Positions 13,285 through 14,006 of a stretch of DNA of 21,069 nucleotides are shown in pieces (positions within the stretch are counted from its first letter, which is position 1; each line of letters opens with the position of its first letter). The notes beneath the pieces were generated by a model. It was given only the letters and a program-made list of their open reading frames with translations, was not told the DNA's origin and ran no database searches. The DNA is from a virus. A program made the translations under genes and the position numbers. Where the stretch lies: IMG/VR virus record IMGVR_UViG_3300042396_000108, positions 1-21,069 of that record; one strand, written 5' to 3'.

Positions 13285-13340
13285 TACTTAGTCCTCTCAA
13301 ACTAGGTGTGTTTGTCATTGGCCGCGCCTTTGACTTCAGT

Positions 13341-13369
13341 ACTCTACGACAAGGTATATCGTCACGCAA
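13341..13369 (-). promoter_or_regulatory. Candidate promoter of the leftward early operon
   Basis: On the minus strand: TTGCGT (13369-13364), 17 nt spacer, TAGAGT (13346-13341). It would start RNA near 13334, leaving a 50 nt leader before the ATG at 13284. The -35 (TTGCG) resembles that of the leaderless promoter at 14449. No better sigma70-like pair is seen upstream of the operon. Confidence 0.4.
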
Positions 13370-13388
13370 GGGGTAGTACATGAGTTTG

Positions 13389-13452
13389 TTGACAGATTTC
13401 TGCATAATTGCAGTTTCCTAGTTACAAACACGCATGAAATAAATTGACAGAT
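13389..13452 (+). promoter_or_regulatory. Repeated TTGACAGAT sites and a CTGCA palindrome in the divergent control region
   Basis: The nine-base word TTGACAGAT occurs at 13389-13397 and again at 13444-13452. Between them lies the palindrome CTGCA-TAAT-TGCAG (13400-13413). Neither TTGACA has a -10 at a normal distance, so these look more like protein-binding sites than -35 boxes; the same half-site occurs in both palindromes of the erf promoter. Confidence 0.4.
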
Positions 13453-13464
13453 GCGGCATGTATA

Positions 13465-13737
13465 GTGCCGGCGCGGAGATGTGGGTGAGACTCCCACTTG
13501 CGACGAGGCACAAGGCCGAGAGGTACGCCCCTCGTTTCCCAGGCAATGGGGTAATTAACCTTCCGACAGGACAGGGCGCGGCAACGCGCTGCTGTCTGCA
13601 TAAACCTATGAATAATTTGAACCTTTATGCAGATCGACATAGTGCGGCGACTGTGTCGATGCGGTCAGCATTCCACTTTGACCTATGTTTCCTGCTCCGG
13701 AAACAAACACGGCTCGGGACTTTCGTCAACCGAGCCG
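13465..13737 (+). ncRNA. Putative large structured RNA, first domain (about 270 nt)
   Basis: No credible gene on either strand, but a dense row of inverted repeats: GTGGG/CCCAC (13481-13497, 7-base loop) enclosed by CGC/GCG and GTGCC/GGCAC (13465-13511); an imperfect hairpin at 13517-13534; GACAG and GCGCG stems capped by a GCAA tetraloop (13570-13596); nine-base arms CTGCATAAA/TTTATGCAG (13596-13632); ten-base arms 13633-13642/13651-13660 with one G-T pair; GTTTCC/GGAAAC (13687-13704); eight-base CGGCTCGG/CCGAGCCG (13710-13737). The strand is a choice: transcription is assumed rightward because GNRA capping fits that reading. A TATAGT at 13461 could start it but lacks a matching -35. No tRNA, tmRNA or RNase P features are visible. 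Confidence 0.55.
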
Positions 13738-13797
13738 CGCATCCGGGGGACTTGAGTGTAGCAATTTAATTCCATTTGCACGATCCAATTCGGTTGT

Positions 13798-13803
13798 TAT
13801 GAT
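13798..13803 (+). promoter_or_regulatory. -10 box of a leaderless gene
   Basis: TATGAT (5 of 6 matches) ends exactly 7 nt before the ATG at 13811, so RNA should begin at or next to the start codon. A TTGCAC lies 16 nt upstream (13776-13781) as a weak -35. The same spacing recurs at 14472 and 16249. Confidence 0.5.
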
Positions 13804-13810
13804 TCGCGGC

Positions 13811-13969
13811 ATGAGTCAGGGGCGCAAGATCAAGAAGCCATTCGGCAAGCGTGGAGATCCAAATTGGATGGACACGATTCCTTTGACTCCTGAGTTCTTG
13901 AACCGCTCGAAAGTTCATGTGCGGAAGTACGGCAAAGTCCGAACAGACTTGCCTCCAACCGCGAAGTAA
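13811..13969 (+). CDS. 52-residue basic protein, leaderless gene, unknown
   Basis: The ATG at 13811 is preceded by a -10-like TATGAT at 7 nt and no ribosome site, hence probably leaderless; an in-frame ATG at 13799 lies inside that -10. The peptide is basic and Pro-rich (MSQGRKIKKPFGKRGDPNWM, then DTIPLTPEFLNRSKVHVRKY), without a hydrophobic segment, and might bind nucleic acid. It sits between two structured-RNA stretches; if the whole region is one RNA, this frame could be accidental, but its amino-acid composition and clean start and stop favour a gene. Function unknown. Confidence 0.45.
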   Translation: MSQGRKIKKPFGKRGDPNWMDTIPLTPEFLNRSKVHVRKYGKVRTDLPPTAK

Positions 13970-14006
13970 CGACAATTTGGTGGTAGGTGTGCAGCCGCAT
14001 TACGAA

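Follow-up and report, generated by a model that had tools for sequence, protein, structure and literature searches.

The YrlA RNAs (Rfam family RF02553) are among the closest described systems to the RNA reported here, and their traits include dihydrouridine and pseudouridine in the loops. A second point of reference is the permuted tmRNA of alpha- and betaproteobacteria and of cyanobacteria, in which the T-arm and the 3′ strand of the acceptor stem precede the acceptor 5′ strand. One account describes the YrlA tRNA-like domain and PDB entry 6CU1, with a large stem made from the 5′ and 3′ ends holding Rsr and the tRNA-like domain binding PNPase (PMC8394870). Another contains the suggestion that this domain could inhibit an anticodon nuclease (PMC7790460). 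Among phages, Y RNAs have been found in mycobacteriophages and suggested for a Listeria phage, where they would neighbour an Rsr-like gene (PMC12282133), and TROVE proteins occur in some jumbo phages (PMC7824862). GOLLD, ROOL and OLE are large structured RNAs associated with phages or metagenomes (PMC12286853).

The stretch of DNA analysed here (the window) comprises 21,069 bases of a virus record. Its PHROGs matches include Gam, RusA and an Erf-like annealing protein, together with terminase subunits and a head-tail adaptor family of T7 type. It contains a conserved noncoding gene with a conserved promoter position and fold topology, as established by computation. The product is probably a circularly permuted, tRNA-like RNA of the phage that acts in trans and offers a tRNA-shaped surface to a tRNA-binding protein. 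The promoter and RNA elements of the window described below all lie on the plus strand.

A conserved noncoding gene

The gene occupies a gap with the leftward (recombination) genes, which extend up to 13284, on one side and rightward genes on the other. Open reading frames that cross the gap are broken in close relatives, being open in 2/24 sequences on the plus strand and 1/24 on the minus strand, with the window's own sequence counted. A blastn search with 13300–13999 against 214 loci returned 122 matches in 90 loci, many of which cover 13458–13764 only; this island is therefore conserved, and its flanks have diverged.

The conserved 5′ domain (13473–13597) was recovered by profile and pattern searches as at least 63 distinct sequences (alignment A1, which omits the truncated L225). 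Among 88 loci added later, at least 42 profile matches reached 74 bits or more, and at least 25 further distinct full-length rows lie outside A1; the latter count excludes the doubtful L389 and the truncated L337 and L419, all three of which are inside the set of 28 later distinct rows referred to below. All family sequences come from metagenome-derived viral contigs.

No Rfam 15 family, GOLLD, ROOL and OLE included, matched the window at the gathering score. At E ≤ 10, the region 13300–13850 gave one lncRNA match of 8.6 bits, attributed to chance, and eight whole relatives gave five sub-threshold matches, none to a family of tRNA type. Against named phages, blastn of 13300–13800 found short matches only (E ≥ 2), and the L399 and L350 cores found none. 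The L271 core gave a 52-nt match in MT835723 (E 0.003), which was rejected as unsupported by the family model R1, and the best matches of the L341 core were tRNA genes or YrlA-like places. R1 found no match in two related complete Manatee Spring phages, in zth2-2 or in ten Erf-related loci (L147–L156). Under stricter filters and with no positive control, a strict pattern of the RNA gave no match in bacterial genomes, and R1 gave none in 399 genomes from the family of a Ramlibacter MAG in which a 75% TerL relative occurs. A literature search covering mainly papers outside subscription journals returned no description of a permuted tRNA-like phage RNA.

Promoter, 5′ end and flanking elements

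A −10 hexamer, TATAGT (13462–13467), spans −12 to −7 if +1 is placed at 13473. When the initial G of GCGG is taken as +1, T−12, A−11 and T−7 are invariant in all 38 distinct upstream sequences (from 62 cores), and these three positions are those that characterize the −10 element of sigma-70 promoters. This invariance makes 13473, the first base inside stem P1, the most likely transcription start, with transcription from the gene's own promoter. The sequence TTGACA (13444–13449) lies only 12 nt from the −10 box, a distance of 11 or 12 nt in the window's clade and shorter than a standard sigma-70 −35 element would allow. Inverted repeats resembling CTACAG...CTGTAG are found just 5′ of the −10 region in L226, L245, L250, L276, L252, L236 and L304, where they are perhaps an operator.

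A 3′ module (13687–13747) consists of the hairpin GUUUCC..GGAAAC (13687–13704), a second hairpin at about 13708–13740 and then ATCCGGGGG. It has no U run, and a terminator scan found no terminator. In relatives this conserved module, which ends in TCCGGGGG, is present whether or not the core is there, and in L078 it lies as far as about 1 kb from the core. Six loci (L147, L148, L150, L151, L154 and L156) share the window's upstream sequence through TTGACA and the 3′ module, but where the core would be they have another, short hairpin RNA; L152 has the same replacement arrangement with another upstream sequence. It seems that the RNA payload is exchanged while the promoter and the 3′ module on either side of it stay. 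A second, repeat-rich, leader-like element lies 3′ of the core or module in L127, L270, L259, L226, L250, L245, L073, L074 and L151; it shows a GAGC..TGCAA..GCTC pattern with later complementary arms, and in several cases precedes an ORF that starts like MAQPQWFPMYPTDFL.

The position of the RNA between leftward recombination genes and rightward genes, with a promoter 5′ and a hairpin module 3′, would suit a cis-acting leader of the rightward early transcript, ending at the 3′ module, whose fold controls termination or antitermination downstream; the second leader-like element downstream in several relatives points the same way. We nevertheless regard a leader as unlikely. In the sister loci L236 and L304 and in L252, a convergent gene comes next and ends 0–7 nt past the core, so that at these three loci there is nothing to lead and the RNA stands alone as a gene of about 140 nt. 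The core is also kept while the downstream sequence changes, and there is no U-run terminator.

Fold of the conserved 5′ domain

The predicted RNA opens with GCGG (13473–13476), the 5′ strand of an anticodon-stem-like helix (P1) whose 3′ strand is CCGAC (13563–13567). A13566 is bulged, and both-side changes occur at column pairs 10–135, 11–134 and 12–133. A variable-loop-like linker, AGAU (13477–13480), follows, in which U13480 corresponds by analogy to tRNA position 48. It leads to a T-arm-like hairpin (13481–13497) with a 5-bp stem, GUGGG/CCCAC, and a 7-nt loop, UGAGACU; 99.0% of its stem cells are paired over 63 rows. The acceptor-like stem, UUGC/GCAA (13498–13501/13543–13546), has 98.8% of cells paired and both-side changes at 3/4 pairs. 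It is closed, within 13498–13546, by a hairpin (13502–13508/13530–13536; 98.9% of cells paired, both-side changes at 7/7 pairs) with the near-invariant tip ACAAGGCCGNRAGGUACRMCC. The linker U-G (13547–13548), with U and G in 63/63 sequences, corresponds by analogy to tRNA positions 8–9, and connects to the D-arm-like hairpin GGGU-AAUUA-ACCU (13549–13561; 100% of stem cells paired, both-side changes at 2/4 pairs), from which a single nucleotide (13562) leads back to P1. Beyond P1 lies P5, the GCAA hairpin (13569–13597), with a 1 × 2 internal loop, 87.1% of cells paired and both-side changes at 8/11 pairs, values that include partly misaligned rows.

In A1, 94.7% of cells in the whole structure are paired, compared with 82.7% in shuffled alignments and 41.7–50.0% when the structure is slid, and 27/38 pairs change on both sides, compared with 15.2 in shuffles. 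RNAalifold, run on A1 with no structure given, recovers P1, the T-arm, the acceptor-like stem with its hairpin and the D-arm. By corrected mutual information over 20 representatives of less than 90% identity, the top 12 of 8811 column pairs (at least 90% standard) all fall within the structure. Among later-found members, 928/953 cells are paired, a figure that leans towards the model because the later alignment was fitted to it. The constrained fold is 1.6–33.1 kcal/mol above the minimum free energy (MFE) in 18 rows (6.3 in the window), in part owing to misaligned P5, and the core alone has a z-score of −1.80, with 11/200 shuffles as good. An MFE fold of 13468–13745 in which the 5′ and 3′ ends pair together was set aside because the alignment gives it no support. 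The 5′ domain thus appears to form one cloverleaf on the evidence of RNAalifold, pair counts and mutual information, although thermodynamics prefers other folds.

The order of elements (anticodon-like stem, 4 nt, T-arm, hairpin-closed acceptor-like stem, U-G, D-arm, 1 nt) appears to be that of a circularly permuted tRNA. The linkers measure 4 nt from the stem to the T-arm, 0 nt from the T-arm to the acceptor, 2 nt from the acceptor to the D-arm and 1 nt from the D-arm to the anticodon-like stem, the 4-, 2- and 1-nt lengths each holding in 63/63 sequences. By analogy these represent the tRNA variable loop, the T–acceptor junction, positions 8–9 and position 26, respectively.

Resemblance at the level of individual letters differs between lineages. 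The T-loop has 7 nt in 29/63 sequences; it reads UUCGAUU or UUCGACC in five (L271, L277, L252, L236 and L304) and UUCGAAU in L341. The D-loop contains GG in 5/5 sequences with the canonical T-loop and in 7/58 others; L341 combines a perfect T-loop with a D-loop that lacks GG. In the window, the T-loop UGAGACU and the D-loop AAUUA do not have the U55–C56/G18–G19 letters. The counterpart of the tRNA 15–48 pair (A13554–U13480 in the window) is U-A in 50/63 sequences and C-G in 13/63, and ranks ninth by corrected mutual information; no other tertiary pair appears among the most strongly covarying pairs. On a tree built without those columns it changes only twice (sign test, p 0.5), so this covariation is not significant by itself. 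The 28 later distinct rows have U-A in 15, C-G in 3 and C-A in 9 (one clade), with the pair missing in 1.

A lineage-specific 3′ tail

Downstream of the 5′ domain in the window's clade are two hairpins that the first-pass annotation had described as back to back, with no linker. Both are present where it placed them. In P6 (13596–13632), CTGCATAAA (13596–13604) and TTTATGCAG (13624–13632) form nine Watson–Crick pairs around a 19-nt loop, with 98.6% of cells paired over 24 distinct rows. In P7 (13633–13660), ATCGACATAGT/ACTGTGTCGAT (13633–13643/13650–13660) enclose a 6-nt loop, with 98.0% of cells paired where the hairpin is present; its start and its single T-G (G-U) wobble agree with the annotation, but the stem has 11 pairs, one more than the ten counted there. 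P6 ends at 13632 and P7 begins at 13633, and coaxial stacking of one on the other is possible because no linker separates them. The reported one-base overlap with the GCAA hairpin also holds: C13596 is the last C of that hairpin, and P5 and the P6 stem compete for it.

Stems of at least nine pairs with loops of 3–20 nt are not rare in the window (8, compared with a shuffled mean of 6.8, s.d. 2.2, over 60 shuffles); two such stems at most 3 nt apart occurred in 1/60 shuffles. The MFE structure of the 65-nt stretch consists of exactly the P6 and P7 stems, at −23.4 kcal/mol (z −5.15; 0/200 shuffles as good). Within the window's clade (24 distinct rows), the pairing is kept in 98.3% of P6 and P7 cells. 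Relatives had been proposed as a source of compensatory changes; they preserve the pairing but supply a single compensated pair, a number equalled in 17/500 shuffles, so that covariation here is weak because the stems scarcely vary. The P6 loop is inverted in L026, L029, L030 and L327 with the 9-bp stem unchanged, the outcome expected from a flip between the two arms or from a template switch.

Homologues that lack the pairing do exist. L037 has no P7, and the more distant L105/L113 group, L271, L277, L252, L236 and L304 have neither hairpin at this place and yet retain the 5′ domain; other lineages end after P5 or carry different tails. The hairpins are therefore not essential to the family. 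Their reading as a feature of a compact RNA survives insofar as they lie inside a conserved noncoding RNA, but they are peripheral to its core. As one component of the overall interpretation that we favour, P6 and P7 probably constitute a 3′ tail, specific to the window's clade, of a phage-encoded noncoding RNA.

Comparison with YrlA, tRNA and tmRNA

Positions 28–81 of the YrlA consensus (RF02553) run from the T-arm through a closed hairpin, a 2-nt linker (UA) and the D-arm to a closing stem, which is the order of the phage RNA. The differences lie around and within this module. Since the phage RNA starts at P1 (with +1 placed from 38/38 upstream sequences), the outer stem of the 5′ and 3′ ends, which would bind Rsr, appears to be absent; the acceptor tip is longer, with a near-invariant GNRA motif; the T-loop is replaced or extended in most lineages; and hairpin P5 follows the closing stem.

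If the RNA were a genuine but divergent YrlA, bound to the host's Rsr (Ro60) and linking it to PNPase, the shared module order would be accounted for, but we consider this quite improbable, as a start at P1 would leave no 5′ strand for the Rsr-binding stem. The RF02553 model gave no match in 13300–13850 at E ≤ 10, and none of 30 records of relatives exceeded its 69-bit cut-off. At E ≤ 10 these 30 records yielded five matches, four in the core (L271, 15.3 bits; L277, 17.8 bits; L304, 14.5 bits; L236, 12.4 bits) and one elsewhere (G020). The four core matches lend the YrlA reading some support; they depend chiefly on the T-arm, and the model also matches 13/14 control genomes at E 10. No TROVE gene was found in 26 records of family members or related phages or in two further ones, many of these records being fragments; a host copy is possible.

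Two named phages carry unannotated candidate YrlA RNAs, which likewise count in favour of the YrlA reading: Streptomyces phage Stella (L428, 592–693; 28.2 bits), where the candidate is flanked by a tRNA-Pro and a tRNA-Gly gene, and Arthrobacter phage Racecar (L427, 582–713; 32.9 bits), both below the cut-off of 69 bits. They share the register of the phage RNA, down to the AGAU of the variable loop that precedes a UUCGA T-arm, and lack its GNRA tip motif. The R1 score provides no link between them, since it is no higher on the Stella candidate (16.7 bits) than on a tRNA pair in DSS3P8 (16.6 bits). On this comparison the phage RNA is at least laid out like the YrlA effector module and perhaps works like it, and we do not class it as Rfam YrlA.

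A virion structural or packaging RNA, or some other fold with a coincidental resemblance to tRNA, is very unlikely in our estimation. In favour of these readings are the podovirus-like character of the phage, which has a portal family of T7 type, the placement of the RNA gene a few kilobases upstream of the terminase genes, and the thermodynamic preference for other folds already noted; against coincidence, six independent tRNA-like dimensions agree (the 4-, 0-, 2- and 1-nt linkers, the 5-bp T-stem and the 7-nt T-loop in 29/63 sequences), and some members have a canonical T-loop. The RNA shares with GOLLD, ROOL and OLE a structured nature and an association with phages or metagenomes; it has no Rfam match, and its conserved core is far smaller.

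Relative to a tRNA, the order is permuted and the acceptor closed, and free ends, CCA, an anticodon loop and the standard order are lacking. Relative to permuted tmRNA, the part order is the same, and there is no tag frame or CCA end. A permuted tmRNA or decayed tRNA gene is scarcely credible: permuted tmRNA does share the order of parts, and the L271 T-arm matches both the Rfam tmRNA model (17 nt, 14.3 bits) and tRNA-Gly genes (24 nt), but ARAGORN found no tRNA or tmRNA in the window and 16 relatives, no tmRNA match extends past that T-arm, the acceptor end is a closed and strongly conserved hairpin, and the compensatory changes indicate selection rather than decay.

Proposed role

The permuted layout suggests a tRNA imitation that the phage uses to engage some host factor. 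The RNA would be transcribed from its own promoter, beginning at the 3′ strand of the anticodon-like stem and continuing through the variable-loop-like linker into the T-arm; the conserved hairpin would seal the acceptor-like stem at the site of the two ends of a tRNA, and the chain would return through the D-arm to the first stem. Since it can stand alone, it would act in trans. Having no free acceptor end, it would not be chargeable and would most likely work through its tRNA-shaped surface, with the T/D elbow and the sealed, near-invariant tip of the acceptor as the contacts for a tRNA-binding protein. Our best guess for the partner, made because the YrlA module binds PNPase, is PNPase itself, in which case infection may retune or occupy an enzyme of host RNA decay; it is nearly as likely that the RNA would be a decoy for some other enzyme that binds tRNA, and the suggested inhibition of anticodon nuclease by the YrlA domain fits such a decoy.

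More tentatively, and with less confidence than in the tRNA-like layout, these sequences may represent a separate class of phage RNA: a tRNA permuted as if nicked in the anticodon loop, sealed at the acceptor, independent of Ro60/Rsr and unchargeable, which would occupy or redirect host PNPase, a tRNA-repair enzyme or a tRNA-cleaving enzyme. The family shows that Rfam and tRNA finders miss structured RNAs in small podovirus-like genomes, and it makes about 90 natural variants available for testing mimicry at the T-loop, the D-loop, the 15–48 pair and the sealed acceptor. With a tRNA-like module, but apparently no Rsr-binding stem and no detected phage Rsr, it pulls apart the two components of the Y RNA concept and would show that a tRNA mimic is useful to a phage on its own.
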